31,361 nt of DNA from a virus. This document shows, piece by piece, positions 1 to 14,222 of this stretch. Where the stretch lies: positions 1-31,361 of the IMG/VR virus record IMGVR_UViG_3300025280_000108; one strand, written 5' to 3'. The stretch's first letter is position 1. The number at the start of each line of letters is the position of its first letter. The notes under the pieces are model-generated. The model was not told the DNA's origin. It did not search any database and was given only the letters and a program-made list of their open reading frames with translations. Both the position numbers and the translations under genes were made by a program.

Positions 1-140
1 TCCATGCGAGGGATAAATTTTAAACAGGCTGGGCATTGGTTGTTTTCAGAATCGTGGACTAGCTCGTTGCATTTCTTGCAATAGAAGTATTCTGCGTTTT
101 CGCACTCGTTGCTATGGTTATCGGTATCATATATGCTCAT
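1..140 (-). CDS. Small zinc-ribbon protein, partial (runs off left edge)
   Basis: The reading frame starts at an ATG at 140-138 behind a very strong purine-rich ribosome site (GGAAGGAAGG) and is open to the window edge, giving 46 residues so far. It holds two CxxC knuckles, CKKC and CPAC, about 15 residues apart, as in a short zinc ribbon. It lies downstream of the small gene ending at 223, with a stable hairpin between them. The function is unknown; small zinc ribbons of this kind in phages are usually thought to bind nucleic acid or protein. The C-terminus is outside the window. Confidence 0.7.
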   Translation of the reverse strand, partial: MSIYDTDNHSNECENAEYFYCKKCNELVHDSENNQCPACLKFIPRM

Positions 141-182
141 TTCGTCTTCCTTCCTTCCTTTCTTCTTGCTTTTTTAGGCTCC

Positions 183-220
183 CCATCCTTGCCCCTGACC
201 GGAGTCAGGGGCAGGGATGG
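183..220 (-). terminator. Strong hairpin with UNCG-type tetraloop between two minus-strand genes
   Basis: Two 17-base arms (183-199 and 204-220) pair with one G-T mismatch around a 4-base loop. Read on the minus strand the loop is C(UCCG)G, a member of the stable UNCG tetraloop class. There is no U-tract after it on the minus strand, so it is not a canonical intrinsic terminator. It may instead protect or process the mRNA, or attenuate transcription into the gene at 140-1. Confidence 0.5.
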
Positions 221-222
221 AG

Positions 223-492
223 TTACCTACTGCAATTTGTGCAAGCCTTGGGGTCTATCTCGTCCATGACCCAACCTGGATCCTCTTCATCGCCAGTGTC
301 TAGATAATTCTCGATGGCAGTGGCGAGATCGGGGAAAATGTATCCCTCTCCAAATGTTTCGAATAGTCGCCTAGTTTTAATGTCACCGCAACCCACCTTG
401 TGGATATCAATTCCATGCCCAGTTACGAATGCTACTACATAGAGGCCATTTGGATTCTCAAACCGGTTCCGGTTCCTGGTGGCTATAATCAT
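223..492 (-). CDS. Small protein of unknown function with C-terminal CxxC
   Basis: This 89-residue protein starts at the ATG at 492-490, chosen because a GGGGG ribosome site sits just upstream. A start at 561 would place the promoter inside the gene. The N-terminus is basic and Asn-rich (RNRNR), the middle is mixed, and the C-terminal third is acidic (DTGDEEDPG) and ends in KACTNCSR with one CxxC. I do not recognise the family. It is the first gene behind its own operator-bearing promoter (529-557), so it is probably expressed with the early genes and independently of the terminase genes upstream. Confidence 0.7.
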   Translation of the reverse strand: MIIATRNRNRFENPNGLYVVAFVTGHGIDIHKVGCGDIKTRRLFETFGEGYIFPDLATAIENYLDTGDEEDPGWVMDEIDPKACTNCSR

Positions 493-528
493 GTTGTCCC
501 CCTTGTTAATGTTAATTACCATAATTAG

Positions 529-557
529 AGTATACACCAATAGTGTATACAATGCAA
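529..557 (-). promoter_or_regulatory. Sigma-70-like promoter with embedded 13-bp operator (minus strand)
   Basis: On the minus strand the -35 is TTGCAT (557-552), the spacer is 17 bp and the -10 is TATACT (534-529). The palindrome ACACCAATAGTGT (534-546) fills most of the spacer and its end is the first base of the -10. The geometry is identical to the promoters at 5923, 6040, 6805 and 10349. A bound protein should block RNA polymerase. It would drive the gene at 492-223. Confidence 0.8.
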
Positions 558-635
558 CCATTTAACGCATCAATTTCACAACAATCGTTAAATTGGTTAA
601 AGAGGAAAGGGGCAATCAAAACCGAGCAAAAGAAG

Positions 636-653
636 GAACTAGCTAATTAGTTC
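636..653 (-). terminator. Weak hairpin at the terminase stop codon
   Basis: Arms GAACTA and TAGTTC with a 6-base loop overlap the TerL stop codon. On the minus strand they are followed by a pyrimidine stretch CTTCTTTTGC. This could be a weak intrinsic terminator closing the replication/packaging operon before the separate promoter at 529-557. The stem is short and AT-rich, so confidence is low. Confidence 0.3.
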
Positions 654-1940
654 TATGCCAGCTTCTGGAACCTGGAGCTTAGCAAACGCTCCGGAAACCG
701 CGTCGATCTGGTCGTCATGTGAGCCATTGGGGAAGGACTCGGCTTCGTCAAGGTAATCTGTAATCCAGGTTCCTGCGATCAACCGGAAGTTACCAGCCTG
801 GGCAGTAGAACTAACCGGATTGGCTCGTTCCTCTTTACTGCCGGTCGGTCGGTCACCGTAACAAATGTATCCTTGGAGGACTTTGCGGATGTAGTGGTCT
901 ATAGTAATGACACCGGAAGAACCTGGTTCTTGTTCAATGTAAATCGGAGTATTAACACCATCAAGGGCAGCGACCTGTTTGATAAGATGCTCGATATCAA
1001 GAGGGGTTCCTTGGATACGCACCATATGCATGATGTAGTAAATCCCATCTTCATCGATGCCGACAAGCGCACCGGCTGTCCAATCAGGATCTTTACCTGG
1101 CGCAGGGGCTGTAGCAGCCATGTCCCAATAACGCACTTTGTCTACGAGATTAACAGGCACACGATCCAAAGGAGCTTTGAACCATTCGCGCTTGAATTTT
1201 CCACCTTGCTGTCTGGCTGACCAATCTCCTCGTAGTAACTGCGCTTTTGTGACAGCATCTAGTTGCGACAAGGATTGCACATATGCTGCACGATCAAGGA
1301 ACGGGTTATCAGCAAGCCGTGCAGGAATGAAAATACGGCCCTTGGATTTTCCTTCCACCACAAACCGCTGCTTGACCCAGTCATGGCCTCTTCCACCAGG
1401 GTTGGAAGCAGAGCGCATCCTTAATGGGATGTTGCTTCCGGTAGGACGACGAAGTCGAGAGAATAAATAAGTGTATTGCGATTGAGTGAACTGGGTTAGT
1501 TCGTCGAATCCAATAAACTGGAATTCAGTGGACTGATATCGATATTTGTGGTTTTCATTATCCATGTAGGCAAAGGTCAACGTTGCCCCGCTCGGGAATC
1601 TCCACTCTTTCGTCATCTCGTGCCATGTGCAATCCTTGCCATTAAGCCATTCCTTGGATCGTTCCATAATTGCACCAGGAAGAGCAAGGTCGGCAAAAGT
1701 ACGCCGGAAGAGAATGGCGTGATAGTCAGGTTCATCTACATACTGTAATGCTGCCATGAGCAAAGCTTCTGATTTGCCACCACCGGCAGCACCACCGTAA
1801 AGGACTTCTTGTACATCGACCAGCATCAAAAAACGGGCTTCTTTGTGTGTCGGTTCATGAGGAATATAACGATTGCGTACAACGGTGAACCCAAGAATAC
1901 CTTCGCGTAGTTTTATTGGATCAATTGATGCAGTTACCAT
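639..1940 (-). CDS. terL: Terminase large subunit (packaging ATPase and nuclease)
   Basis: This 433-residue motor protein pumps DNA into the prohead and cuts the concatemer. The N-terminal ATPase has Walker A GGAAGGGKS (about 49-57) and a Walker B-like FIGFDE (142-147, Asp-Glu pair). The C-terminal RNase H-like nuclease has the expected acidic residues: RYWDMAAT (Asp about 273), IEQEPGSSG (about 335-343) and HDDQIDAV (about 408-415). Length is normal for the family. It starts 5 bases after the TerS stop, so the two are co-translated. The order methylase-TerS-TerL on one transcript places packaging immediately downstream of replication. The family assignment is secure. Confidence 0.96.
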   Translation of the reverse strand: MVTASIDPIKLREGILGFTVVRNRYIPHEPTHKEARFLMLVDVQEVLYGGAAGGGKSEALLMAALQYVDEPDYHAILFRRTFADLALPGAIMERSKEWLNGKDCTWHEMTKEWRFPSGATLTFAYMDNENHKYRYQSTEFQFIGFDELTQFTQSQYTYLFSRLRRPTGSNIPLRMRSASNPGGRGHDWVKQRFVVEGKSKGRIFIPARLADNPFLDRAAYVQSLSQLDAVTKAQLLRGDWSARQQGGKFKREWFKAPLDRVPVNLVDKVRYWDMAATAPAPGKDPDWTAGALVGIDEDGIYYIMHMVRIQGTPLDIEHLIKQVAALDGVNTPIYIEQEPGSSGVITIDHYIRKVLQGYICYGDRPTGSKEERANPVSSTAQAGNFRLIAGTWITDYLDEAESFPNGSHDDQIDAVSGAFAKLQVPEAGIELIS

Positions 1941-1945
1941 GATGT

Positions 1946-2464
1946 CTAATCCACATCGTATTCATCTTGTTCTACTACTTGAGACTGTCCATCAATAAGT
2001 TGATCCATATCCTGCCAGGGGTCAGCACGAATATCAGCAGCGTACGCAGCCAATTGTTCAGTTAAGCTCATTGTATGCTCAACTTGAATAGGCCCACCTT
2101 GATCTCCGACCAACTCAAGTCGATTACCTACAGCAACATCCAAGCCCAAAAGACGAGCGCGTCGCTCTAAAATTTTTAGGACACGATCAATAGTTGGGAG
2201 GTCTCCAGCCCTGGCTCGGCTCCAAAGGGCCATTAGCAAAGAGTCCAGTCGTGCTAAGTCCATTTGACGCGCTTCTTCAGATGGTTCTTGCAGCGTCTTA
2301 AACAAAGCGGTCTGGACGGCGTTATAGGCTCCTTGCTTGTTGCTATATCCTAACGCCTGGGCGATCTCAAGATAGGTCGCTCCAGCCTTTCGCAAATCCA
2401 CTGCACTTCGTTGTCGATCAACCGCTGCTATGCGCCGAGGGCTGGTTTTGCTTTCTCTAGGCAT
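1946..2464 (-). CDS. terS: Terminase small subunit
   Basis: This 172-residue protein should recognise the packaging site and regulate TerL. The N-terminal part (about 8-50) is basic and contains a helix-turn-helix-like segment (RKAGATYLEIAQALGYSN) typical of TerS DNA-binding domains. The middle (about 65-115) is alpha-helical and suited to oligomerisation, and the C-terminus is acidic (EQDEYDVD). The ATG at 2464 overlaps the stop of the methylase gene (TGATG), so translation is coupled. An in-frame GTG one codon upstream is possible. The assignment rests on the HTH, the size and the position directly before TerL. Confidence 0.88.
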   Translation of the reverse strand: MPRESKTSPRRIAAVDRQRSAVDLRKAGATYLEIAQALGYSNKQGAYNAVQTALFKTLQEPSEEARQMDLARLDSLLMALWSRARAGDLPTIDRVLKILERRARLLGLDVAVGNRLELVGDQGGPIQVEHTMSLTEQLAAYAADIRADPWQDMDQLIDGQSQVVEQDEYDVD

Positions 2465-3675
2465 CACTCCACCCTCCGGGGCTCCAGGCCCATCCCGGCC
2501 ATCCGCTCTAGGGTCACCGCCACATACTTCGGCTCGATCTCCATCCCGTAGCAGATGCGTTCGGTTTGTTCACAGGCGACCATGGTGGTCCCGGAGCCGA
2601 GGAAGGGGTCGTACAGCGTCTGGGCAGCATCGGTTATATTTAGAATTGCCGCAAGGAGTTCCACCGGCTTCTCAGTTGGATGGTTCGGATTACCTGTTCG
2701 CTGACAGCGAATAACATTACCCAGGGCCTTGTGGTTGTCAAATTTGATAATGTTTCGACAAGCAAACATGATGATTTCGTGTTGGCTGCGCCATCCAACA
2801 CCCATACCCGGAGACCCCTTATCCCATACAATCATCTGCCTTACACCAAAGCCTGACGATTCCATGACATCATAAAGGTTGACCCACATTTTCCAATCAG
2901 TAAAGACGTAGGCGCCCGCACACTCTATCTCCCCAATAGCTCGTTTAATCAATGCTAAATACCCATGTGTCGACAACCTGTCATTAACTATTTGGGGCAC
3001 AGGTTGGCCTTGCTGAACTGTTCCAATACTGCCACTGGCCCTTGATGCTTCTTGAAAACCCCCAGAGGAGTACGGTGGGTCAGTCATAATAAAATTAGGT
3101 GCCACACCTCCGTACAGCTTCCGCCTGTCTTCCGGGCTTGTACAGTCTCCGCACATTAAACGGTGTACCCCAACCTCCCAGAGTTGGCCCCGTTCGGTCC
3201 CCCACTTAGCTAGCAACTCAGCGGCCTGATCCAACTGAGGCCCTGGATCGGGTGCTCCTCCATGTTCTATGGGTAGGTGTTGCTGCTTCCGTATGTCATC
3301 CAGCATGGCACTCAGGTCCGGGCGCTGGATGCTCTCCAACAGCGCCGTGAGGTCTCCCTTGTCTGCCTCGGCCATCGCTGCCAGGGGATCCAAGGTCGCC
3401 AAGACCACGTCCGCCTCAGCTTCGTCCAGGTCCACCACGAGGACGGGGACAATGGCCTCGGGATCGAGCCCGGCCCGGAGGGGGCCATCCAGGAGTTCGA
3501 TCCCCTGGTCCGTCTCGCTGCCTATGAGGGCATCCGCCCACCCAACCTCGGCAAGGACCGCCTGGAGGTGCTTCTGCTGGGCCGGAGAATGCCGCCTCCA
3601 GTTCTTCGGGTTGGGAACCAAATCCCCGGCCCGGGCCCGGCGGAGGTCGGTTATTCGATCTCTAATATCTGCCAT
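2464..3675 (-). CDS. ParB-like domain fused to a DNA adenine methyltransferase (beta-type order)
   Basis: This is a 403-residue two-domain protein. Residues about 10-110 resemble the ParB/Sulfiredoxin-like N-terminal domain (VPNPKNWRRHS near 20-30), but the usual DGHxR motif reads DGPLRAGL (63-70). The methylase part carries catalytic motif IV TDPPY (198-202), HPTEKP (332-337) and the S-adenosylmethionine motif DPFLGSGTT (356-364). Motif IV precedes motif I, the beta-class order, and DPPY favours N6-adenine. Such genes beside terminase are common in phages and may protect phage DNA from restriction. No partner endonuclease is visible. The first 350 bases or so and the last 200 are much richer in G+C than neighbouring genes, suggesting a mosaic or imported origin. 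Target sequence unknown. Confidence 0.92.
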   Translation of the reverse strand: MADIRDRITDLRRARAGDLVPNPKNWRRHSPAQQKHLQAVLAEVGWADALIGSETDQGIELLDGPLRAGLDPEAIVPVLVVDLDEAEADVVLATLDPLAAMAEADKGDLTALLESIQRPDLSAMLDDIRKQQHLPIEHGGAPDPGPQLDQAAELLAKWGTERGQLWEVGVHRLMCGDCTSPEDRRKLYGGVAPNFIMTDPPYSSGGFQEASRASGSIGTVQQGQPVPQIVNDRLSTHGYLALIKRAIGEIECAGAYVFTDWKMWVNLYDVMESSGFGVRQMIVWDKGSPGMGVGWRSQHEIIMFACRNIIKFDNHKALGNVIRCQRTGNPNHPTEKPVELLAAILNITDAAQTLYDPFLGSGTTMVACEQTERICYGMEIEPKYVAVTLERMAGMGLEPRRVE

Positions 3676-3686
3676 CAGCGTCCCCT

Positions 3687-4025
3687 TTATCCATTTGATG
3701 CAGTCCTCTCGAGGGTCCGGACGATGTCATCCCAATCACGTGGTCGCCATATATATACCTGATGTCCAGGGATTTGTTGCAGCATTTCTAACACCTGTTT
3801 TTGCGCAGGTGTTAGCTTTCCCTTCTCGGTCTTTAGCTCGGCGATCACCATCCGTGGTGGTCGCAACAAAACAAGATCAGGCCATCCTGCCGGACTGTGC
3901 TTGCTGTTCCACGTGCGAAACTCCTGCCAACCGAGGCCACGGGCCAGTTGCACTACGTGGTTAGCAAAGGTTTTTTCGCTGATCGCCAAATTCGCTGGCA
4001 CCCTCGTTCTCCTAACGGTTGGCAT
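3687..4025 (-). CDS. VRR-NUC domain nuclease
   Basis: This 112-residue single-domain protein matches the VRR-NUC (PD-(D/E)XK superfamily) pattern: an N-terminal Glu (about 17), GWPDLVLL (47-54, catalytic Asp 50), AELK (62-65, catalytic Glu and Lys) and a following Gln in LTPAQ (75). The C-terminus IWRPRDWDDI is also typical. Stand-alone phage VRR-NUC proteins are thought to act as structure-specific nucleases, for example on Holliday junctions or replication forks. The start overlaps the end of the helicase loader gene by 14 bases. Its position between the loader and the methylase fits a role in replication intermediates or packaging-linked DNA processing. Confidence 0.9.
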   Translation of the reverse strand: MPTVRRTRVPANLAISEKTFANHVVQLARGLGWQEFRTWNSKHSPAGWPDLVLLRPPRMVIAELKTEKGKLTPAQKQVLEMLQQIPGHQVYIWRPRDWDDIVRTLERTASNG

Positions 4026-4857
4026 AATCCCAATGATCTACACCAGTGCGATGATCCCCTGCTGTAATGTACGCTAAAGTAGTTATGCCAGTATCGGTAT
4101 CCCATAGCCTACTTGCAATCGTGCTGCCCAATACGAGGGCGGTTTTATCACGGGATAGATGCGTGGCAAGGGCTGTCAGCTTCTCGTCTTGATAACGTTC
4201 ATTTATGATTGTAGAAAGGGTGGAGACGCTAAAGCTGGTAGCGTTCACCGATCCAAGTTCGTCCAGCAGCAGCACTTCGGCGTTAATGTAAGCAGCCTCT
4301 ACATCGTACATGCTAGGGCCATCAGGGTTCGCAATCGTGGCCCGTAGTTTGCGCAGGAGCATTTCGGCACTTTCATATTTAACCATGTAGCCATCCGCAA
4401 CCATACGTCTACCGGCTGCTTGCAGTAGATGGCTTTTGCCAGACCCATTGGTGCCGTTGAGCATCAAAAACGGGGCAGTGTCAGTGCGCATGGCCCATGC
4501 CTGCGCCAAAGCTAGCGCATCTTCCGTTCCAGGTATTCGGTCAAAGCCTTTGGTAGTGTCAGTTTCCCCGATGTCATCAAAAGTTCGTGGTTTACCCTTG
4601 GGGAAATTGTTGTAACGGATCATCATTTCCGCAGTATGCTTAATTGCTTCGGGGCTTTCAGAAACGCAGTGACAGCGAAACACATTGCCGAAGTCGGGAT
4701 GTTCCAAAGGCACTTTGTGACGTACCCAGCCAGTGCCTCTACAATCAGGACACTGCGTTACGGTTTCGTCGTCGTTCGGATAATCTTCGACTCTCGGTTT
4801 CAAACCGGTTCTCGATAGGATTGTGCTGAGGTTTTCCATTCCCTTTTGGTTGGTCAT
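4012..4857 (-). CDS. DnaC-like replicative helicase loader (AAA+ ATPase)
   Basis: This 281-residue AAA+ protein should load a host replicative helicase at the phage origin. The N-terminal zinc site is CPDC (36-39) and CHC (62-64). Walker A is GTNGSGKS (135-142) and Walker B VLLLDE (195-200). This layout is usual for phage DnaC/IstB-like loaders. The ATG at 4857 has GGAGGT five bases upstream. The first 113 bases overlap the end of the initiator gene in another frame, which is long for a phage overlap; Met7 at 4839 would shorten it slightly. Pairing with the upstream HTH initiator is the classic lambda O/P or DnaD/DnaI-type module. Confidence 0.9.
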   Translation of the reverse strand: MTNQKGMENLSTILSRTGLKPRVEDYPNDDETVTQCPDCRGTGWVRHKVPLEHPDFGNVFRCHCVSESPEAIKHTAEMMIRYNNFPKGKPRTFDDIGETDTTKGFDRIPGTEDALALAQAWAMRTDTAPFLMLNGTNGSGKSHLLQAAGRRMVADGYMVKYESAEMLLRKLRATIANPDGPSMYDVEAAYINAEVLLLDELGSVNATSFSVSTLSTIINERYQDEKLTALATHLSRDKTALVLGSTIASRLWDTDTGITTLAYITAGDHRTGVDHWDYANR

Positions 4858-5635
4858 TAGTACCTCCGGTCATCATGCACCATGTACGTAGCACGGCATA
4901 TAAGTTTCGATAGTGTCGTTTTCCTGTACCGCTGTGATAATCCCAACCACCACCTTTTTTGTAAGTGAAACTAGCAACCATAGCCCAAGCCTTCAACTCT
5001 ACGGTTTCCGACGGTATTTGATGTTCACGTTGCCAGCGATCAAAATTATCCGCTTGCTTATCCACATAAACAAAGCCTTCAATATACGCCAGGATATCGT
5101 GGACAGTCTGAATATTATCAACATCCACCGGTATAGATATATTTGATGTTTCTTCTGATGTTTCTATTGGTGTTTGGGGTGTCACTGGTAACACCCTAGC
5201 TTGTTCGTTTTTACACCCTAGGTCTAATTTATTACACCCTAGGTTTTTGTCATTGTGTCTAAAATTACGCCCTAGCTCTATGTCAGATTCAACAACGCTA
5301 TCCTCGGCACTTGGTTCAGCACGAGCGGAACTTTTAAAGGGTGGCTTAAGAAGACCTTTGCTTAGATCAATACGGTATTCGGTAGCATAACCGTTGCGAC
5401 CTCCACCACCACCACGGCCAGGACTAACGGGTATCAACAAGCCTATCTTTACCAGTTCCTGAAGAATAGTCTGCACTCTACGGCGAGAGTAACCGGTTTT
5501 CCACATCATACGAGCTACGCTTGGGAAGACCTTCGTTCCATCGTCTTGAGCATGGTCGGCAAGGCAAAGCATCAAAGTCTGTTGAGTATGTGTTAACTCA
5601 ATTGACCAAACCTGACCAGACAGTAGACCGCTCAT
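4745..5635 (-). CDS. Replication initiator-like protein with N-terminal winged helix; origin lies inside the gene
   Basis: The protein has 296 residues. Residues about 1-95 look like a winged helix-turn-helix: an early helix (THTQQTLMLCLADHAQDD), then FPSVARMMWKTGYSRRRVQ, then a Gly-rich wing (GRGGGGGRNG) and EYRIDLS. A low-complexity linker follows (about 105-165). The C-terminal domain is Trp/Tyr-rich (about 170-260) and the tail is very basic (SRRLSERRRNRN). This is the plan of phage initiators such as lambda O or DnaD-like proteins: DNA binding at the N-terminus and helicase-loader contact at the C-terminus. The linker DNA carries four iterons and nearby DNA carries DnaA boxes. The DnaC-like gene is directly downstream. 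No specific Pfam family is claimed. Confidence 0.82.
   Translation of the reverse strand: MSGLLSGQVWSIELTHTQQTLMLCLADHAQDDGTKVFPSVARMMWKTGYSRRRVQTILQELVKIGLLIPVSPGRGGGGGRNGYATEYRIDLSKGLLKPPFKSSARAEPSAEDSVVESDIELGRNFRHNDKNLGCNKLDLGCKNEQARVLPVTPQTPIETSEETSNISIPVDVDNIQTVHDILAYIEGFVYVDKQADNFDRWQREHQIPSETVELKAWAMVASFTYKKGGGWDYHSGTGKRHYRNLYAVLRTWCMMTGGTNDQPKGNGKPQHNPIENRFETESRRLSERRRNRNAVS
5046..5276. other. Probable phage replication origin (DnaA boxes, AT-rich stretch, iterons)
   Basis: Within the initiator gene lies a perfect DnaA box TTATCCACA (5058-5066), flanked by TTATCCGCT (5046-5054, 7/9) and TTATCAACA (5115-5123, 8/9). An AT-rich stretch covers about 5124-5165. Four direct repeats of consensus TTACACCCTAGS then lie at 5189-5200 (TAACACCCTAGC), 5211-5222, 5232-5243 and 5265-5276 (TTACGCCCTAGC). 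Start-to-start spacings are 22, 21 and 33 bp, close to whole helical turns, so all sites face the same side. One repeat is in a different reading frame from the other three, so conservation is at the DNA level and not protein level. Confidence 0.8.
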
Positions 5636-5645
5636 GTAATCATCC

Positions 5646-5882
5646 TTATTGCGTGGTCTCGGAAAATTGTTCCACCTGAATGCTTTCAGCTTTTCGTTTC
5701 AGGGCATCCTCCAGTATAGGCACTGATCGTGTGGTTTCTTTATGTTCCACAACGTATAGGCGATCCCAATATGGCGACTTACATTTGGCACAGCGTGACG
5801 GTTTCGTCATATTTCGGCTATACCATATGTGACCGCAAGCAGGTCGTGCGCATTGGTTCGCTTCCACAGATACAGTGGGCAT
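5646..5882 (-). CDS. Small zinc-ribbon protein, first gene of the replication/packaging operon
   Basis: This 78-residue protein uses the ATG at 5882 because AAAGGAG lies just upstream; a start at 5924 would overlap the promoter. It has CARPACGHIWYSR (about 12-24) and SRCAKCKSPYWDR (about 29-41). Together they form a C-x4-C...C-x2-C zinc ribbon followed by Trp/Tyr-Trp motifs, a pattern I recall from small phage and bacterial proteins of uncertain, probably nucleic-acid-binding, role. A basic/acidic helical tail follows. It is the first gene behind the leftward operator-promoter, ten bases before the replication initiator gene, so it could be a regulatory or replication accessory protein. Confidence 0.8.
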   Translation of the reverse strand: MPTVSVEANQCARPACGHIWYSRNMTKPSRCAKCKSPYWDRLYVVEHKETTRSVPILEDALKRKAESIQVEQFSETTQ

Positions 5883-5922
5883 ATTTAACTCCTTTCTATC
5901 CCGTGGGACATGGTTACCAACC

Positions 5923-5951
5923 ATTTAACACTAATAGTGTATAGTAGTCAA
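5923..5951 (-). promoter_or_regulatory. Leftward promoter with embedded operator for the replication/packaging operon
   Basis: On the minus strand the -35 is TTGACT (5951-5946), the spacer is 17 bp and the -10 is TTAAAT (5928-5923). The palindrome ACACTAATAGTGT (5928-5940) sits in the spacer with its last base at the first base of the -10. The -35 also touches a second operator (5951-5963). It should start the transcript of the genes from 5882 leftward. Confidence 0.75.
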
Positions 5952-6032
5952 CACTGTAAGTGTTACTAACACGTTTATTATACAGAGAGATGTAATGTTA
6001 CACAACACTATCAGTGTAGGCACTGATAGTTA
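5951..6032. promoter_or_regulatory. Operator cluster in the divergent control region
   Basis: Two further copies of the 13-bp palindrome lie between the divergent promoters: ACACTGTAAGTGT (5951-5963) and ACACTATCAGTGT (6005-6017). A degenerate copy, GCACTGATAGTTA, is at 6020-6032. The half-sites at 5960-5972 also form an everted pair, GTGT-TACTA-ACAC. With the two promoter-embedded sites this makes five or six sites in about 135 bp, suitable for cooperative binding or looping. The interval 5952-6039 contains no gene. Confidence 0.72.
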
Positions 6033-6039
6033 CTCAAGG

Positions 6040-6068
6040 TTGACAATAATACACTATTGGTGTATTAT
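6040..6068 (+). promoter_or_regulatory. Rightward promoter with embedded operator, start of the early block
   Basis: A consensus -35 TTGACA (6040-6045), a 17-bp spacer and TATTAT -10 (6063-6068). The palindrome ACACTATTGGTGT (6051-6063) ends on the first base of the -10. Its match to sigma-70 consensus is very good, so it is likely a strong promoter when unrepressed. A ribosome site (AAAGGAGAG) and the ATG at 6098 follow within 30 bases. Confidence 0.82.
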
Positions 6069-6097
6069 TTTAAGGAAGGAAAAGAAAGGAGAGTGCA

Positions 6098-6382
6098 ATG
6101 GAATTCGTGATATCTGACATCAGTGGAGACTTTCTAACATCAGTCACCATCGTTGCTGACAGTGTGGAGCAAGGCCATGAATGGGCAGCGTCTCATGCAG
6201 CTAGCCTCGGTTTCCCTGGAGTTATCTGTGTAAGCCCACGTTATCCGTTGGTCTGTTGCAACTGCGGTACACGAACAGAGCCGTTAGTGTCTTACCACCA
6301 ATACGCTGGCGGTCATGGCAGTGTAGTCGTTGTGTGCTGCGATGATCGATCTGCATGCTGGGAACGTGAGAGGAGCCAATAA
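6098..6382 (+). CDS. Early small Cys-rich protein sharing an N-terminal module with the gene at 14223
   Basis: This 94-residue protein is first in the rightward transcript. Residues 1-26 (MEFVISDISGDFLTSV, then TIVADSVEQG) closely match the start of the protein at 14223. The rest differs and carries LVCCNCG (about 51-57) and VCCDDRSACW (about 79-88), a likely zinc site. AAAGGAG lies upstream. The stop overlaps the next start (TAATG). I do not recognise a family. Early position and small size would suit a host-takeover or regulatory protein, which is inference only. Confidence 0.8.
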   Translation: MEFVISDISGDFLTSVTIVADSVEQGHEWAASHAASLGFPGVICVSPRYPLVCCNCGTRTEPLVSYHQYAGGHGSVVVVCCDDRSACWERERSQ

Positions 6383-6801
6383 TGATTGCTGAATCTGAAT
6401 TAACAGACGCAGAACTGGTAGCAGCATTGTACGAAGCCAAAGAAAGCCGCAAGCGGGCATACGCTACGCATGATGCGCTAGAGCTAGCGTTACTTCAAAG
6501 GATGTACGAAAAGAAGGCCCAGGCCCTCGCTGGTGTTGGGATGAACGCCATCTTCGATGAAGATACCACCTGGGATGTGGGCATCCTGGAAGGTTTAAAG
6601 GAGCACATTGGCCCCGAAATCATCCTGACCGCCTACACTGCCGAGCACCAAGAAACGGTACCGGCAAAATGGGATATGCGCATCGTGCGCTCTTGGGGAA
6701 AGTTTGGAGAGGAAGTCTCTGAGCTTCTTGACCGGGCTAAAATCCGAGGCAAGCAACGGGTGAAGATTGTCACCACGAAAGAACCTCCGTCCAGCCATTA
6801 G
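6382..6801 (+). CDS. Alpha-helical phage protein of unknown function
   Basis: The 139-residue product starts at an ATG overlapping the preceding stop, with AGGAG upstream. Residues about 5-50 form a charged amphipathic helix likely to be coiled coil. Residues about 58-75 (DEDTTWDVGILEGLKEHIG) and about 95-130 (KWDMRIVRSWGKFGEEVSEL) look like a compact helical C-terminal domain ending in a basic strand (KQRVKIV). The layout resembles small helical phage proteins that sit beside recombination genes, but I cannot name the family. It is transcribed with 6098 from the 6040 promoter. Confidence 0.78.
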   Translation: MIAESELTDAELVAALYEAKESRKRAYATHDALELALLQRMYEKKAQALAGVGMNAIFDEDTTWDVGILEGLKEHIGPEIILTAYTAEHQETVPAKWDMRIVRSWGKFGEEVSELLDRAKIRGKQRVKIVTTKEPPSSH

Positions 6802-6804
6802 GGG

Positions 6805-6833
6805 TTGACATGTGTACACCAACAGTGTATTAT
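6805..6833 (+). promoter_or_regulatory. Second rightward promoter with embedded operator
   Basis: TTGACA (6805-6810), a 17-bp spacer and TATTAT (6828-6833), with palindrome ACACCAACAGTGT (6816-6828) placed exactly as in the other four promoters. It begins 4 bases after the stop of the preceding gene and drives the genes from 6879. This gives the helicase-methylase region its own regulated start. Confidence 0.82.
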
Positions 6834-6878
6834 AAGGATAGAAAACAACATTAACAGATATGAAAGGAGCCCCACAAC

Positions 6879-7199
6879 ATGCAAGCCATCAAACAAGCCA
6901 AGGACTTCACCGGGTACATGATACTAAAGCACACCTGCGGAGCGATAAGCCGGGTGTATGTAGGCCCCTGGTACTTCAAGGGCTACGCCGCCGACGGTCG
7001 CACCCCAGCCGACCTTGATGCGACGATAACTTGCGCTTGTGGGAAGCAACTAAAAATAGAGCATGGCCGGGCCTTATATGGCCGGTATGTAACCACCACG
7101 ATCTGCTCCGATAAATGCACCGGAGCCAGCGGGCCATCCTGCGATTGCCAGTGTGGCGGCATGAACCACGGCGGCAAATACAGCAACGATGTGAAATAG
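6879..7199 (+). CDS. Small Cys-rich protein with a C-terminal CxCxCGGxNHG motif
   Basis: The 106-residue protein starts behind GAAAGGAG. It contains HTCG (about 18-21), ITCACGK (about 50-56) and a dense C-terminal cluster CSDKC...CDCQCGG followed by NHG (about 76-97). The spacing C-x3-C-x6-C-x-C-x-CGG-x-NHG is a motif I recall from small phage proteins of unknown role. It probably binds one or two zinc ions. It is the first gene behind the 6805 promoter and is followed by two hairpins and then the helicase-methylase gene. Confidence 0.8.
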   Translation: MQAIKQAKDFTGYMILKHTCGAISRVYVGPWYFKGYAADGRTPADLDATITCACGKQLKIEHGRALYGRYVTTTICSDKCTGASGPSCDCQCGGMNHGGKYSNDVK

Positions 7200-7203
7200 T
7201 GAG

Positions 7204-7253
7204 GGGCCTGGCCGAAGCCAGGCCCAACGCCAGGGCTGGTCCCAAGGCCAGCC
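7204..7253 (+). terminator. Two tandem GC-rich hairpins after the Cys-rich gene
   Basis: The first has perfect 9-bp arms GGGCCTGGC (7204-7212) and GCCAGGCCC (7217-7225) with a CGAA loop. The second has arms GGCTGG (7234-7239) and CCAGCC (7248-7253). Neither is followed by a T-run, so a full intrinsic stop is unlikely. They may attenuate or shield mRNA between the 6879 gene and the helicase-methylase gene. Confidence 0.45.
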
Positions 7254-7299
7254 AATATAAGCGAGAAGGTATAGACAATGGCTCAATATAAAGTGTTAT

Positions 7300-7395
7300 G
7301 TGGCTGCGGCCACGAATGCTTACCTCATGGAGGCGCTCAAGGTCTCCAAGGAGGACCTAATGCGGGAGCCCGATCCGGAGGAGGTATCGGCATGA
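7300..7395 (+). CDS. Possible very short ORF coupled to the helicase-methylase start
   Basis: A 31-codon frame from GTG 7300 (or 22 codons from ATG 7327) ends at a TGA that overlaps the ATG of the next gene (ATGA). The sequence from Met 7327 (MEALKVSKEDLMREPDPEEV) has a normal protein composition, whereas the other frame across the same DNA gives a Gly-rich, unlikely peptide. This supports moving the downstream start to 7392. Whether the peptide itself is real is uncertain; it could be a translational coupling leader. Confidence 0.35.
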   Translation: MAAATNAYLMEALKVSKEDLMREPDPEEVSA

Positions 7396-9515
7396 CTACG
7401 GCGGTAGACCTATTCCCTTTCCAGGATGCTATCAGTCAATGGGCAGTCAACAAAGGACGGGCGGCTATATTCGCTGATACAGGGTTGGGGAAAACTCGGA
7501 TGCAGCTTACATGGGCAGAGGCGATGGCAGGGCGCACGATCATCCTTGCTCCGTTGGCTGTGGCCTTACAGACAGAACGGGAGGCGCAGCTTATTGGCGT
7601 TGATGCTGGCTATGCCAGGCATCCCGACCAGGTCTCGGCCAGGGTGACTATTGCAAACTATGAAATGGTGGACAGGTTTAACCCCCAAGATTATCAAGCC
7701 GTGGTGCTGGACGAGTCTTCCATTTTAAAAAATGTTGACGCCAAGACTCGGGGTAAATTAACGGGGTTATTTGCCCAGACACCCTATCGCCTCTGTTGCA
7801 CAGCAACTCCATCACCCAATGATATCGCTGAGTTGACCAACCACGCCGAATTCCTTGGCATCATGCGCCGGACAGACGTACTCGCCAAGTTCTTTGTCCA
7901 TGATGATGATGGGTGGAGGCTCAAGGGCCATGCTCAGGAATCATTCTGGGAGTGGGTATCGACGTGGGCGATGGCTTTGCAGCGGCCATCGGATCTAGGA
8001 TATACCGATGATGGTTATGACCTCCCGTCCCTCAACATTCATCATGTAGAAGTAGAGGGTGAAGCGGCTGCCTATGCCCAAGCAACGGGGCAGCTATTCG
8101 CCACCGAACTGAGGGGGTTACATGGCCGTCTAGCGGCCCGAAAGACGACGGTCGAACAGAGGGCGCAAAAGGCCATAGACCTTATCTCTGAACATCCCGA
8201 CGATCAATGGCTAGTGTGGTGTGGATTGAACGAAGAAGGACGGCTACTCAAACGATATTTATCCTCTGCCACTCTGATAGAAGGTGCACATTCTTTCGAT
8301 ACTAAAATGGACGCCGCCCGCCAGTTCGCCGATGGAGGGCTAGGTGTCCTCATTAGCAAGCCGTCGATTATGGGGTTCGGCATGAATTTCCAGAAGGCGC
8401 ACCGCATGATCTTCCTCGGTATCAATGACAGTTTCGAGACTTACTACCAGGCGATCCGGCGATGCTGGCGATTCGGTCAACAAGAGGCCGTTGATGTATA
8501 TACCATCATGTCAGACCTGGAGCGGCCGGTTTGGGATAATGTCCAACGCAAGGCAAAAGAACATGAGGGGATGGTGCAAAAAATGATGGGATTTATGTCG
8601 GACTTTGGCAAAGCCGCCCTGCATGGTGCCATCGTCGACCATGAGAGGATGCCAGACGACACGGCCTCCGGACAGGGATGGACATTGCACCGGGGCGACT
8701 CGACCGCCGTTCTTCCCACTTTGGAGCCCGATAGCGTTGATCTGACAGTATTCAGCCCGCCCTTTCTCAGTTTGTTCGTTTACAGCGATGATGACCGAGA
8801 CCTGGGGAATAGTGATTCCGAGAATGTGTTCATGGAGCGGTTCCGGCCCATCGTCGCTGAACTCCTGCGGGTCACCAAGCCTGGCCGCCTGGCCGTGGTC
8901 CATGTGGCCCAGGTGGCGGCGACATTAGCCCATGATGGTTTCATAGGGATCAAGGATTTTCGGGGTGCCGTCATCAAGTTGTTTATCGAGGAGCAGTTCC
9001 ACTATCATGGTGATGTCACCATCGATAAGAATCCCCAAGCCCAAGCCATCCGCACCCACGCCAAAGCCTTGCTATTCAAGCAGCTCCGCAAGGACGCATC
9101 ATGGCTACGTCCTGGACTGGCAGACTATATGTTGCTGTTCCGTAAGCCTGGCGAGCCAGCGATACCCATCCAGCCCGATATCTCCAATGAGGAATGGATC
9201 GAATGGGCGCACCCCGTCTGGTATGGCATGAGAGAAACGGACACGCTAAATGTCGCCCTGGCCCGAGCGGAACGGGATGAACGCCATATCTGCCCCCTTC
9301 AGCTACCTGTTATCGAGCGATGTATCCGACTCTGGAGCAATCCTGGCGATGTTGTGTTGAGCCCCTTCGCCGGGATCGGTTCCGAAGGCTACGTAGCGTT
9401 ACAACAAAAAAGACGGTTTGTAGGGGTAGAGCTAAAGGATTCATACTATCGGGTCGCTTGCCGTAACCTGGACCATGCTGCGACGACCCGACAGGGCCAG
9501 ATGGAGATGGTATGA
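7392..9515 (+). CDS. SNF2-like helicase/translocase fused to a DNA methyltransferase
   Basis: The 707-residue protein starts at ATG 7392 behind GGAGGAGGT; an in-frame ATG at 7278 would add 38 Gly-rich residues. Residues about 5-400 form a superfamily 2 helicase: FPFQ near the start, Walker A ADTGLGKT (28-35), motif II DESS (107-110), TATPSPND, and a C-terminal RecA-like lobe with AIRRCWRFGQ (motif VI). Residues from about 428 form an N4/N6 methylase: HRGDS, FSPPF (about 453-457, motif IV) and a motif I-like SPFAGIGSEG (about 657). SPP-type motif IV is often seen in N4-cytosine enzymes, but specificity cannot be told. No nuclease domain is visible. The fusion may couple translocation with modification. 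The gene is more G+C-rich than its downstream neighbours. Confidence 0.92.
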   Translation: MTTAVDLFPFQDAISQWAVNKGRAAIFADTGLGKTRMQLTWAEAMAGRTIILAPLAVALQTEREAQLIGVDAGYARHPDQVSARVTIANYEMVDRFNPQDYQAVVLDESSILKNVDAKTRGKLTGLFAQTPYRLCCTATPSPNDIAELTNHAEFLGIMRRTDVLAKFFVHDDDGWRLKGHAQESFWEWVSTWAMALQRPSDLGYTDDGYDLPSLNIHHVEVEGEAAAYAQATGQLFATELRGLHGRLAARKTTVEQRAQKAIDLISEHPDDQWLVWCGLNEEGRLLKRYLSSATLIEGAHSFDTKMDAARQFADGGLGVLISKPSIMGFGMNFQKAHRMIFLGINDSFETYYQAIRRCWRFGQQEAVDVYTIMSDLERPVWDNVQRKAKEHEGMVQKMMGFMSDFGKAALHGAIVDHERMPDDTASGQGWTLHRGDSTAVLPTLEPDSVDLTVFSPPFLSLFVYSDDDRDLGNSDSENVFMERFRPIVAELLRVTKPGRLAVVHVAQVAATLAHDGFIGIKDFRGAVIKLFIEEQFHYHGDVTIDKNPQAQAIRTHAKALLFKQLRKDASWLRPGLADYMLLFRKPGEPAIPIQPDISNEEWIEWAHPVWYGMRETDTLNVALARAERDERHICPLQLPVIERCIRLWSNPGDVVLSPFAGIGSEGYVALQQKRRFVGVELKDSYYRVACRNLDHAATTRQGQMEMV

Positions 9516-9709
9516 GTCGCCCCCTCCGCCGTGGGGTCATGGACTCCGCCTGGAGGGAGATCACCCGCCCGATCTGGGAGACACACCTCCAGGAGGCGGA
9601 GACCGAGGGGAATGAGGGCCGGGCTGCATATGCCCGGTGGGGTCTTCACGCAGGCGGGGGCAGGAGTAAAAACAAACCTCCTCTTCTTCAACAAGGGAAG
9701 CCACACTGA
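9512..9709 (+). pseudogene. 5' end of a phage gene, apparently cut by the HsdM fragment
   Basis: The frame starts at an ATG overlapping the stop of the helicase-methylase gene (ATGA). The first ~40 codons (MSRPLRRGVMDSAWREITRP onward) read like a normal charged protein. From about 9625 the same DNA encodes HsdM in the +1 frame, and this frame becomes Gly/Lys/Pro-rich and stops at 9709. I infer that an original downstream gene was truncated by insertion of the hsdM segment. A genuine 65-residue protein remains possible. Confidence 0.45.
9619..9637. repeat. Short inverted repeat at the hsdM junction
   Basis: Arms CCGGGC (9619-9624) and GCCCGG (9632-9637) flank TGCATAT exactly where the phage-like frame ends and the HsdM similarity begins. 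It may have promoted the recombination that joined them, or only be a small hairpin over the ATG at 9630. Confidence 0.4.
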
Positions 9710-9995
9710 GAAGATTTGGTACTATGACCTATCTGACCTGAAGGTCGCTAAACGGAAGCCCTTGGCCGCATCTCACTTCGATGAGTTCTTCAAACTGCTG
9801 CCGGGGCGAGAAGAAAGTGAGAACAGCTGGACGGTTACGAGGGCGGAGATAGAAGCAAAGAACTACGACCTAAAGGCAGTCAACCCCAACAGGAAAGAAG
9901 AAGTAGATACTCGTACCCCAGAAGAACTCCTAGACATCATCGAACAGAAGGGTACTGAGATACAGGAAGCGTTGGCGATGCTGAGGGGATTATAA
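9630..9995 (+). pseudogene. hsdM: C-terminal fragment of a type I restriction-modification HsdM subunit
   Basis: The 121 codons from ATG 9630 match the end of HsdM in pattern: PGGVFTQAGAGVKTNLLFF, then KIWYYDLSDLKV, HFDEFFKLLPGR, ENSWTV and KNYDLKAVNPNRKEE, ending in a coiled-coil tail. Known HsdM proteins are about 500 residues with the catalytic NPPF motif well before this segment, so this fragment cannot methylate DNA. No hsdS or hsdR follows. The frame is intact and GAGG lies upstream, so a short protein could still be made and might interfere with host HsdM/HsdS assembly. That idea is speculation. Confidence 0.8.
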
Positions 9996-10006
9996 AATAA
10001 TTATAT

Positions 10007-10073
10007 TTAGGTTCTATTTCCCTATAGGAAGACTTTGCTGGAGGTCAACCAAGAGAATGTGGATAGAACCTAA
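10007..10073. repeat. 11-bp inverted repeat downstream of the hsdM fragment
   Basis: TTAGGTTCTAT (10007-10017) and ATAGAACCTAA (10063-10073) are perfect inverted copies 45 bp apart in an otherwise gene-free stretch (9996-10115). It may be a hairpin, a recombination scar or the edge of the imported hsdM segment. Confidence 0.5.
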
Positions 10074-10138
10074 CGCCTAGGAGTCAAGCCTGCAGTTAAT
10101 GAGAGGGAATACCACATGCGTATAGAGGAGTTAACGAC

Positions 10139-10348
10139 ATGGATGTTCTACATTGGGCTTGGATGCAGACTGACCGAACGACCGGATCATCAAGACCGGT
10201 GGACGAGACGGCGGTTAGAATGGCAATAATCGATTACACCCATGACATTGACCGTGCCATCGAACTCGGATATCAAGGTGAGAATTTGGAGACTTCCAAC
10301 AGTTTTTATCGATACGAGGGCAAGCAAGCAAACCGGAGTGTTGAGTAA
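10139..10348 (+). CDS. Small protein of unknown function
   Basis: The 69-residue frame starts behind GAGGAG. It has an aromatic N-terminus (MDVLHWAWMQTDRTTG) and a mixed polar C-terminus. A competing frame, ATG 10116 to 10229 (37 residues, starting MRIEELTTWMFYIGLG, also with a GAGAGGG ribosome site), overlaps it completely. Only one is likely real, and I prefer the longer. No family recognised. The stop lies exactly before the -35 of the 10349 promoter. Confidence 0.5.
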   Translation: MDVLHWAWMQTDRTTGSSRPVDETAVRMAIIDYTHDIDRAIELGYQGENLETSNSFYRYEGKQANRSVE

Positions 10349-10377
10349 TTGCATTATATACACTGTTAGTGTACAAT
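10349..10377 (+). promoter_or_regulatory. Third rightward promoter with embedded operator
   Basis: TTGCAT (10349-10354), a 17-bp spacer and TACAAT (10372-10377). Palindrome ACACTGTTAGTGT (10360-10372) ends on the first base of the -10, as at the other four promoters. The -35 is the same TTGCAT as at the 529 promoter, so these two may be weaker than the two with TTGACA. It drives genes from 10411. Confidence 0.8.
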
Positions 10378-10410
10378 AGTAGAGAAGAAAGACGTTAGGA
10401 GGATGAAAGG

Positions 10411-11049
10411 ATGATGTTACAGCAACGGGACATATCAATGGAGATGGAACTACGTGGCATTACGCAAAAAAAGACTAAGGCTGATAAATCCTATGCCGAT
10501 GTCGAGATACAGTTAGACCCTGTATACCGCCGAAAATACCCCGAAACCCTTAAATGCTGGGACTGGGACATGGTGGCGCACCTCGTGGATCAGGCTGGTA
10601 CTCGGCAGACATTTCACCTCAGTCCAGCAAAGTTAAAAACTAATCAAGACGGTTCTGTTAAAGACGACGATGGTCAGTGGGGAAGTTACGACTGGAAAAT
10701 CATCGGTGTTGGTGACGGTGATGGTCTACCAGCCTTGGATGTGCCAGTGTACCAACCGCAGACCAAATGGCATGACGAGCCGTCCGACGATTCCAAGCCC
10801 ATTTACGCCAACAATCTTGGCGATACGTGGTTGCGCAAGGATCGCTCAATTGAAAGTCAGACTGCCATGTATCAGGCGATAGATTCAGCCAAGTTCCTAA
10901 CTAAGGAAGCTGCCAATGTCCGAGATACAGTGTTTGAGCAAATCGATGGAGAGCTAATTGTTCACATTGACAAGTTTACCGACATAGTGAAGATGTTGCA
11001 TCCGGTGTATGTACAAATGATCCGAGAGGAACGGCCTGACAATTGCTGA
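10411..11049 (+). CDS. Unknown early protein, possibly an OB-fold single-strand-binding type
   Basis: The 212-residue product follows AGGAGG and is first behind the 10349 promoter. The N-terminal half is strand-rich with alternating charges (GITQKKTKADKSYADVEIQL; CWDWDMVAHLVDQAG; DWKIIGVGDGDG), compatible with an OB fold. The middle is acidic and Pro-rich. The C-terminal 70 residues are helical (TAMYQAIDSAKFLTKEAANV; FTDIVKMLHPVYVQMI). A ssDNA-binding role is a guess from pattern and context. The stop overlaps the next ATG (TGATG). Confidence 0.75.
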   Translation: MMLQQRDISMEMELRGITQKKTKADKSYADVEIQLDPVYRRKYPETLKCWDWDMVAHLVDQAGTRQTFHLSPAKLKTNQDGSVKDDDGQWGSYDWKIIGVGDGDGLPALDVPVYQPQTKWHDEPSDDSKPIYANNLGDTWLRKDRSIESQTAMYQAIDSAKFLTKEAANVRDTVFEQIDGELIVHIDKFTDIVKMLHPVYVQMIREERPDNC

Positions 11050-11192
11050 TGTTGTGGACGAAATGTTGGCATTGTAAATCGGATAAACTTAAAGTTGCCG
11101 ATGGCTCACACATGGTGCTGGAATGTACTATGTGTAGAGCCATCATGGTTGGTGTTATTGCCAACCATCCCAACACCAAACAACGAAATTAA
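11049..11192 (+). CDS. Short zinc-ribbon protein (47 residues)
   Basis: The frame starts at an ATG overlapping the previous stop by one base. It has CWHC (6-9) and CTMC (26-29) separated by 16 residues, including a strand KLKVADGSHMVLE, which is a minimal two-knuckle zinc ribbon. The stop TAA is followed directly by AGGAGG of the next gene. Tight coupling on both sides supports it as a real gene despite its size. Confidence 0.7.
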   Translation: MLWTKCWHCKSDKLKVADGSHMVLECTMCRAIMVGVIANHPNTKQRN

Positions 11193-11203
11193 GGAGGCTC
11201 AAC

Positions 11204-11962
11204 GTGCCGGTGTTTTATGACCGTGGAGGAAACCCGATCTCGCTGACGAGTTGGACACATAAACTCAACGATCCCGATTACTGTGTCATTGATATCACTG
11301 AGTTTGATGACGATCACTCCACCAAAATAATCACTCGATGGACTGGCATTGATCTCGGCATTGTGCCAGCGGAAGATGCTAATCCGAGTCGACATCTTAT
11401 CTACCAAACTGTGTTGTCGGATGCTCGTGATAACAATATCGTTTATGTCCAGCCCTGGGAAACCGAACGCGCTGCACAACTGGGTCATCAAGCAGCATCC
11501 CAAGCATTTACCGATGGACATATTCTGAGTTGCAGCGAACCGCTATCGGTGGCAGCAGAGCAATTAAGTGACGTTGAAAATACAGTTGTTGAACCGTTAG
11601 CAGTCGAAACTGTTGTTGAAGAAGCCTTACCAGTGCCAGTGCCAATTTTACCATCTGTTGCCGTGAGCGATGATCCGAACCGTGTGGTTCTTGACCACAC
11701 GCCAGCTATAGCGTCCGAACCCGTGGTACAAATGCAGCCATCAATGGCAGCAGGAGCCGTAGCAGACTATGTGGACGAAAATCGTGTCGTCATTGCGACT
11801 CCCGAAGGACAGCAAGTGGAACTACCTGGTACGCATCCCAGAGATCATGTTGAAATTAGACCTCATGCGTTCCACCATCCGGAAGGCGGTATCTTTGACG
11901 GGGCTGGTGCGCCCCTCTGTTCGCATTGTTGGAATCCTGAAGCATTACATCCCCCTATGTGA
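11204..11962 (+). CDS. Unknown acidic protein with Pro/Val-rich linker and C-terminal CxxC
   Basis: The 252-residue protein starts at GTG 11204 behind AAGGAGG. Residues about 1-100 look globular (MPVFYDRGGNPISLTSW; YCVIDITEFDDDHSTKIITR). Residues about 110-190 are a low-complexity Val/Pro/Glu/Ala linker. The end is globular again (about 200-252) and finishes with APLCSHCWNPEALHPP, one CxxC plus His residues. Two domains on a flexible tether suggest a scaffold or interaction protein, with no family recognised. Its stop overlaps the next GTG start (GTGA). Confidence 0.72.
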   Translation: MPVFYDRGGNPISLTSWTHKLNDPDYCVIDITEFDDDHSTKIITRWTGIDLGIVPAEDANPSRHLIYQTVLSDARDNNIVYVQPWETERAAQLGHQAASQAFTDGHILSCSEPLSVAAEQLSDVENTVVEPLAVETVVEEALPVPVPILPSVAVSDDPNRVVLDHTPAIASEPVVQMQPSMAAGAVADYVDENRVVIATPEGQQVELPGTHPRDHVEIRPHAFHHPEGGIFDGAGAPLCSHCWNPEALHPPM

Positions 11963-12228
11963 TCCGTGTGTCAGAATACCAACAACTTCAACAAGTTTAC
12001 ACTGAGGCGTTGAAAATACGGGATGCACTTATAGATAAGTCTCTACATATTGAGACGGATCAGGACATGAGGAACAATATGATGATAGTTTTGTCCCATT
12101 ATTTACTCTCAGGAGTAAATGAAGAAAATGTACCTCGAAAAATTGTGTTTGCCCAACGAAACGTGATTGATGCGGATCATGATCTGATGAAAGCAACAAC
12201 GGAGCAATCGGAGGGAGTGACAAAGTAA
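11959..12228 (+). CDS. Small helical protein of unknown function
   Basis: The 89-residue product starts at a GTG overlapping the previous stop. It is mainly helical (VSEYQQLQQVYTEALKIRDA; MRNNMMIVLSHYLLSG) with an acidic, Thr/Glu-rich C-terminus. Its stop overlaps the next ATG (TAATG). There is no recognised motif. Position in a tightly coupled run of short early genes supports expression. Confidence 0.65.
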   Translation: MIRVSEYQQLQQVYTEALKIRDALIDKSLHIETDQDMRNNMMIVLSHYLLSGVNEENVPRKIVFAQRNVIDADHDLMKATTEQSEGVTK

Positions 12229-12473
12229 TGGAACAGAATGTTGATCTTAGTAGTAGCGTTGAGATTGCCAAAACATCAAGCTATGTAGTTGCGAACGAAT
12301 TATTAGCGCACGGTTACAAATGGAGGTTCATTATCAATCGGAGTGAGGAGTCAAAACGTAGTGACGGTCAAACCTATCTACGCAAATGGTCGGAGTTTGT
12401 ACTCTCACGCTCGGCTGATGTGGAGAAATATGATCCTCCACGTCGGACACCCTATCAGCAATCCCGTGATTAA
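12228..12473 (+). CDS. Small basic protein of unknown function
   Basis: The 81-residue frame is coupled to the previous stop. It has a helix (about 10-26, IAKTSSYVVANELLAHG), a short strand pair (YKWRFIINRSEESKRSDGQT) and a basic/aromatic C-terminus with PPRRTPYQQS. No family is recognised. It lies 15 bases before the PAPS-reductase-like gene and shares its transcript. Confidence 0.65.
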   Translation: MEQNVDLSSSVEIAKTSSYVVANELLAHGYKWRFIINRSEESKRSDGQTYLRKWSEFVLSRSADVEKYDPPRRTPYQQSRD

Positions 12474-12488
12474 GGAGAGTAAAGGGAG

Positions 12489-13346: not shown

Positions 13347-13458
13347 CCACAACAATCACAACCGACCACAACGGTTATAAGATCGTGATAGAGGAGGTGG
13401 CGTGATGAGTAGCCTTATTACCTATATCGACCATACTAACCACAACGATGACCACAAC
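13334..13458 (+). repeat. Cluster of six ACCACAAC-type direct repeats
   Basis: ACCACAAC occurs at 13334, 13346, 13365, 13439 and 13451, and the variant ATCACAAC at 13355. The first four and last two are spaced 9-12 bp apart, about one helical turn. They cross from the end of the PP-loop gene through the 20-codon ORF into the next gene, so they are not explained by one protein repeat. They could be protein-binding sites or simple low-complexity coding. Confidence 0.45.
13343..13405 (+). CDS. Possible 20-residue coupled ORF
   Basis: ATG 13343 overlaps the stop of the PP-loop gene and the TGA at 13403-13405 overlaps the ATG of the next gene. The peptide (MTTTITTDHNGYKIVIEEVA) is short but has a strand-like end. 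AGGAGG of the next gene lies inside it. It may be only a coupling device between the two flanking genes. Confidence 0.35.
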   Translation: MTTTITTDHNGYKIVIEEVA

Positions 13459-14207: not shown

Positions 14208-14222
14208 GGAGGTAGATAAGTA

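Follow-up and report, generated by a model that had tools for sequence, protein, structure and literature searches.

The virus record IMGVR_UViG_3300025280_000108 of IMG/VR (positions 1 to 31,361, hereafter the window) carries a 13-bp palindrome that is repeated across its promoters. We found seven exact copies of this palindrome, ACACYNNNRGTGT, in the 31,361-base window, starting at 534, 5928, 5951, 6005, 6051, 6816 and 10360. Shuffled sequences contained 0.15 copies on average and at most 2, and none of 100 shuffles reached seven. These positions had all been given by an initial annotation of the sequence, and an exact scan confirmed each of them. The looser form, ACAC-N5-GTGT with at most one mismatch, is not enriched in the window (15 observed, 11.56 expected), and it is therefore the exact palindrome that stands out. 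According to a hand-drawn gene list, all seven copies are intergenic (intergenic DNA makes up 8.1% of the window), and the density of the motif in the coding DNA of the window is zero. A degenerate copy had also been proposed at 6020 (6020-6032). It has three mismatches and is better described as one half of an inverted repeat at 6007-6030, whose two perfect 10-bp arms (6007-6016 and 6021-6030, the latter being the proposed copy) enclose a 4-nt loop.

Five of the seven copies are placed in the same way relative to a sigma-70 promoter: the palindrome lies inside a 17-bp spacer and its final base is the first base of the -10 hexamer. This shared register, which the initial annotation had described with two promoters facing left and three facing right, was also confirmed. 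On the minus strand, P534 (529-557) has its -35 TTGCAT at 552-557 and its -10 TATACT at 529-534, with the candidate operator ACACCAATAGTGT at 534-546, and P5928 (5923-5951) has TTGACT at 5946-5951 and TTAAAT at 5923-5928, with ACACTAATAGTGT at 5928-5940. On the plus strand, P6051 (6040-6068) and P6816 (6805-6833) both combine TTGACA with TATTAT and contain ACACTATTGGTGT (6051-6063) and ACACCAACAGTGT (6816-6828), respectively, while P10360 (10349-10377) combines TTGCAT with TACAAT and contains ACACTGTTAGTGT (10360-10372). At this fixed register the hexamers match 8, 9, 11, 11 and 8 of 12 consensus bases at 534, 5928, 6051, 6816 and 10360, and the copies at 5951 and 6005 reach at most 4 and 3, respectively. 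Among 151 control intergenic positions, six reach 8 of 12 and none reaches 9; the binomial probability of five out of seven in register is about 2e-6. The weak points are the -35 hexamers at 534 and 10360, with three of six consensus bases, and the -10 at 5928, with four of six. A generic promoter scan of positions 1-17000 showed no excess (23 vs. 20.5 in shuffles) and listed only P6051 and P6816 of the five, as its two best.

The copies at 5928 and 5951 are exactly 23 bp apart, a pairing overlooked in the initial annotation. With this offset, the second P5928 operator (ACACTGTAAGTGT, 5951-5963) therefore shares one base with the -35 hexamer of this promoter, namely its first. The copy at 6005 (ACACTATCAGTGT, 6005-6017) lies outside any promoter spacer, 46 bp from that at 6051. 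Each of these two spacings occurs once, and three promoters have a single operator.

We then placed the window in a complete phage. Three near-identical IMG/VR records were found, G001 (33.4 kb), G002 (43.4 kb) and G003 (26.4 kb), and a scan over their whole length gave the same seven sites on each and none elsewhere. G001 runs from base 20739 of the window beyond the window end and back to base 12104, with 99.8-100% identity. The phage is thereby closed into a 42,050-bp circle, a closure that depends on G001. A comparison of the window with G002 over 13.6 kb shows 11 differences, none of them within operators; one difference (5941) adjoins the 5928 operator. The phage population varies at the left branch region: G002 diverges after about base 131 of the window, with 1.25 kb that carries a second, related methylase gene, and G003 diverges further left, its left 14.5 kb being different and carrying other structural genes. 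This branch point (L096 at 11155-12409 against the window from 131 onward; L174) may correspond to mosaic phages or to assembly joins. We searched G001-G003 for HTH_3 (PF01381), integrase (PF00589) and resolvase (PF00239), and none gave a match at E-values up to 1. No repressor is annotated in the distinct left part of G003, where the PF01381 search was also empty, and the genes next to P5928 and P6051 belong to no helix-turn-helix (HTH) family.

The anatomy of the sites resembles that of lambda operators. In phage lambda, cooperative dimers occupy neighbouring operators that are spaced by about 23-24 bp; of the two spacings in the window, that at P5928 is 23 bp and the other 46 bp. The excerpt of PMC10742460 gives TAtCACCGCcaGTGaTA as the lambda operator consensus, which shares with the palindrome a dyad symmetry, a CACYnnnRGTG core (CACCGCcaGTG in lambda) and the overlap with promoters. 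Dyad-symmetric sites in the 13-17 bp range that overlap early promoters are found here, as in lambda, and the core is of the HTH_3 kind, both by the lambda consensus and by the position of the palindrome beside HTH_3 genes in four other contigs (G005, G008, G012 and G434). An operator between -10 and -35 is also described for rep of phage mv4 in the excerpt of PMC10848424. In contrast to lambda, the flanks are different, the sites are spread over five promoters and no cI/cro pair was found. In G001-G003 no cognate HTH_3 gene was found beside the operators, nor was an integrase found that would point to a lysogeny module of the integrating kind.

The observation itself, seven palindromes with a shared promoter register, is real. 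To explain it we favour, with confidence that stands about halfway, a set of operators for a dimeric lambda CI/Cro-like repressor (HTH_3/XRE) that would act in trans or have been lost. The initial annotation had proposed that the sites are scattered operators of a single regulator, and this is still the best reading, with a predicted reach wider than was claimed, from P534 through a methylase gene to the structural genes. It had recognised no named repressor for the site, the anatomy of which matches HTH_3 (CI/Cro-like) phage repressors. Judging from the sequence, we would predict that a protein binds the palindromes, that it is of the HTH_3 type and that it represses. A repressor dimer on the palindrome would occupy the spacer as well as the first part of the -10 and would thereby exclude RNA polymerase; two such dimers, bound 23 bp apart at P5928, would mask the two hexamers of that promoter. 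As all five promoters recognisable at the heads of transcription units bear the same operator, a single regulator could silence the early block, the replication block and, via P534, the structural block together.

The repressor would come from outside, from a resident prophage or another host element, or would have been lost, as in mycobacteriophage D29, whose repressor gene is without its 5' end and which is yet still subject to immunity (excerpt of PMC6550527). We prefer an external or lost repressor because the phage is without a recognisable repressor, tyrosine integrase or serine recombinase. The intact sites, kept in all four near-identical records (the window included), suggest that something still reads the operators; as the records are near-identical, however, site conservation cannot test this. 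What is unusual here is that a known kind of operator is spread over all recognisable main promoters with no detectable repressor or integrase.

We then looked for the same palindrome in other virus contigs of IMG/VR. Two copies 23 bp apart were found in five contigs, namely the three near-identical ones, G004 (locus L101) and G005 (L104). One copy in promoter register was found in 73 stretches, 70 of which are outside the family of the window and 40 of which are distinct; three of these 40 lie inside an open reading frame (ORF) of more than 150 amino acids. In several contigs of temperate phages the palindrome adjoins HTH_3 genes or lies between them. The 23-bp operator pair of G005 lies between two divergent HTH_3 genes. 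In G008 (L105), a small HTH_3 gene and a gene for an HTH_3-Peptidase_S24 protein, a CI-type repressor, are separated by two promoters, each with the palindrome, and in G434 (L115) it lies between two HTH_3 genes. By eye, the small proteins of these three loci resemble each other (EVA...GIS...YE..). Each of the three loci has a leftward promoter in the same register as in the window; they differ from it in having XRE genes of their own on either side of the operators. Over whole records, HTH_3 exceeds the Pfam cut-off (23 bits) in G005, G008, G012 and G434, and an integrase is present in the first three of these. Neither an integrase nor HTH_3 above this cut-off was found in G001-G003, G004, G432 and G433.

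The last two contigs, which are related to each other (129 and 145 kb), also show a dispersed layout. They carry 10 and 9 ACAC-N5-GTGT sites, respectively, whereas the reversed control has none; of the 16 distinct sites listed for them (L109 and L129), 10 score at least 8 of 12 at the register of the window. Like the window, they combine scattered sites in the same promoter register with the absence of integrase and of HTH_3 above the cut-off (four matches each, of at most 17.6 bits). They differ in that the central letters are freer, the genomes are much larger and little is shared beyond the terminase. Between the window family and the 129-kb phage, we found a terminase with 48% identity, a weak small-terminase-like match and a helicase similarity, and no shared early regulator candidate among ORFs of at least 40 amino acids at E-values up to 0.01. 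A dispersed layout with no shared early protein speaks for regulators that would be unrelated or external. In G004, two promoters show the layout operator, -35, operator, -10, one of them with a mismatch in the first copy, and its proteins have only one 29-amino-acid chance match in common with those of the window. Its single HTH_3 match (18.7 bits, at the opposite end of the contig) is below the cut-off, and G004 is therefore not a clean second case. A bolder reading, to which we give a confidence well below even, is that a complete phage would carry a CI-like operator on every main promoter but no repressor, its whole programme being remote-controlled by the repressor of another element in the host, and that the same would apply to G432 and G433 and perhaps to G004.

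To compare the palindrome with known switches, we used 12 XRE regulator regions from named phage records (74 records found). In these regions, 13-mers in which two complementary 4-bp arms of any sequence flank a 5-bp centre are in excess (29 vs. 16.2; 0 of 200 shuffles). Palindromes with a 7-bp centre are also in excess (29 vs. 16.6; 2 of 200), partly as longer arms counted twice; moreover, L247 and L248 have identical palindrome lists and should count once. Whole families occur, e.g. TCAC-N5-GTGA and ATAC-N5-GTAT, three times each, and in LR1, PLE3 and LmoS_188 such a palindrome lies within a 17-bp spacer. These XRE switches from temperate phages of Gram-positive hosts, together with phig1e Cng/Cpg, resemble the window in having several 13-bp palindromes per region. 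They differ in the arm letters, in a register 1-4 bases farther from the -10 and in forming one divergent switch, as opposed to five scattered promoters here.

Scattered sites are known from other phages. In phiC31, scattered early promoters have inverted repeats that are bound by one phage-encoded repressor; these conserved repeats differ from the palindrome of the window in sequence and length. The Phi13/TP901-1 half-site, AGTTCAYR, was rejected as being different from the motif. The stoperators of the L5 clade and of D29 are similar in that one repressor has many scattered sites, D29 keeping its sites with no working repressor (excerpt of PMC6550527). They differ in being asymmetric and mostly outside promoters, whereas all seven sites here are palindromic and five of seven are in promoters. 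A full-text literature search with six exact operator strings gave a single match, in an unrelated mammalian paper, and topic searches found no description of this motif among the papers listed.

Several results weigh against an HTH_3 repressor as the owner of the operators. Compared with a fair control, the promoter-operator pattern is neither commoner nor rarer in viruses: the control palindrome AACC, of the same make-up and register, was found in 53 stretches, of which 42 are distinct. This control replaced CACAY..RTGTG (5 stretches), which was unfair as it leaves the -10 without an initial T, and the claim of an enrichment among viruses was dropped, AACC having given a near-equal number of distinct promoters. 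The link to HTH_3 neighbours is modest. HTH_3 was detected in 8 of 62 flanking ORFs, compared with 1 of 64 for the control palindrome (p 0.014), and the 8 include one ORF of L105 substituted by hand for an overlapping automatic choice with no family; under the strict rule it was 7 of 62 (p 0.028), and ORFs that flank the same locus are not independent observations. Many promoters that bear the motif elsewhere have no HTH_3 neighbour. Furthermore, the exact motif is absent from the 12 named-phage regulator regions, whose palindromes are not at the exact register of the window (scores of 6 or less), and no XRE gene or prophage was found from which the window's phage could be regulated. The tandem operator is absent from 400 genomes of the phylum to which the one metagenome-assembled genome with a related terminase belongs.

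The main rival explanation is that the phage encodes a regulator of an unrecognised family, either an early protein made from one of the five promoters that would later shut off its own promoters (Cro-like, in a lytic phage) or the protein encoded at 16205-16468 (minus strand), which the initial annotation had put forward as an HTH candidate. Most early ORFs match no functional family, which is compatible with such a regulator, and dispersed sets with no clear CI gene recur in the integrase-less 129- and 145-kb phages. However, no DNA-binding family exceeded its cut-off in 30 small ORFs scanned (the best match was HTH_17 at 0.0066), and the 129-kb phage and the window family have no early candidate in common. 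The 16205 protein matches HTH_17 at 17.1 bits (cut-off 27), its gene is the distal one of the leftward structural block and its structure model is poor (two helices, mean predicted local distance difference test score of 64), so that this candidate is not supported. Its model and that of the 6382-6801 protein are too poor to decide on a regulator role. We consider a phage-encoded regulator doubtful. The weak HTH_17 match and the position in the spacer would also suit a site for an activator of the MerR kind, located between -35 and -10 as well. MerR sites have overlong spacers of about 19 bp, whereas all five spacers here are of the optimal 17 bp, and this explanation is very improbable.

Alternatively, the operator could belong to a chromosomal regulator of the host (e.g. 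LexA-like or stress-related) and have been adopted by the phage to sense the state of the host. The persistence of the sites in a phage in which no repressor was found is consistent with this, but elsewhere the palindrome adjoins HTH_3 genes of phages. The LexA boxes of Gram-positive bacteria and of Dehalococcoides are of the GAAC-N4-GTTC type, which the motif does not fit. A related terminase (62%) was found in a contig, possibly a binned phage contig, of a Dehalococcoidales metagenome-assembled genome, which contains 2 single sites in 1.4 Mb, close to the control count of 1. A host regulator is unlikely. Chance, or a by-product of the promoter consensus, is hardly credible. The outer TA of the palindrome does help to form the start of the -10 and the generic promoter scan did not exceed its shuffles, but the counts of copies and of copies in register given above refute it, and the sites at 5951 and 6005 retain the palindrome outside spacers.

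If the operators obey a repressor that is absent from the phage, the immunity of a resident element would extend to a phage that looks lytic. Such an arrangement, if true, bears on the origin of virulent from temperate phages and on which phages can superinfect which. As the site is short, symmetric and found in several unrelated contigs, candidate repressors are directly testable. We also searched for relatives of the phage by terminase (47 loci), helicase-methylase (36), initiator (3) and the 6382-6801 protein (3). The exact motif was absent from the relatives' loci fetched, apart from the three near-identical contigs, and the operators therefore cannot be traced through related phages. The initiator had no match among annotated phages.

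Judging by gene order, the five promoters would head both leftward blocks (replication and packaging; methylase and structural genes) and three rightward units. The leftward block behind P5928 begins with a gene for a zinc-ribbon-like protein of 78 amino acids (5646-5882, match below cut-off), followed by the replication initiator (4745-5635; HTH_36, O-like in PHROG), a DnaC-like helicase loader (4012-4857), a nuclease, a methylase, a protein matching PHROG 645 and the large subunit of the terminase (639-1940), the positions given being all on the minus strand. The PHROG 645 match is labelled Rnase E; we read this protein as perhaps the small terminase. P534 is followed on the minus strand by a small gene (223-492, 89 amino acids) with no Pfam family and no PHROG at 0.01, then by a cytosine-type methylase, portal, protease/head and head genes, and the block continues round the circle with connector and tape-measure genes. 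Two further large ORFs, one at 17661-20105 and one at 16474-17661, matched no PHROG. A separate late promoter before the portal gene may still exist, because the gap of about 0.7 kb ahead of it holds one weak promoter-like site. On the plus strand, P6051, P6816 and P10360 head early genes, including a helicase-methylase fusion (7278-9515). Their first genes encode proteins of 94 amino acids (6098-6382, no family), 106 amino acids (6879-7199, a weak match to PHROG 6842, whose function is not known) and 212 amino acids (10411-11049, no family), respectively.

The initiator gene contains short repeats that may mark an origin: between 5186 and 5275, three copies of ACACCCTAG lie about 21-22 bp apart (5191, 5213 and 5234), with a variant near 5267. 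Gene O of lambda likewise has origin repeats inside the gene. Of the 11 positions at which G002 and the window differ, four are located at 5167-5269. The ORFs 14450-14695 and 14650-15282 overlap in different reading frames and resemble a single gene broken in two; the same split is also present in G002, and PHROG 5931 matched two unnamed members of the 30-ORF set. A tRNA search gave no match. By eye, the proteins of 6098-6382 and 14223-14429 have a common N-terminal stretch, MEFV.(S/T)D...G.FL.SVT.VADSVE, which is likely to reflect a partial duplication. The tape-measure gene contains long internal repeats at 20530-21475, with self-matches in steps of about 138 bp. Finally, a short tandem repeat of AAGGAAGAACT, noticed by eye at 14165-14215, lies directly ahead of a gene start.

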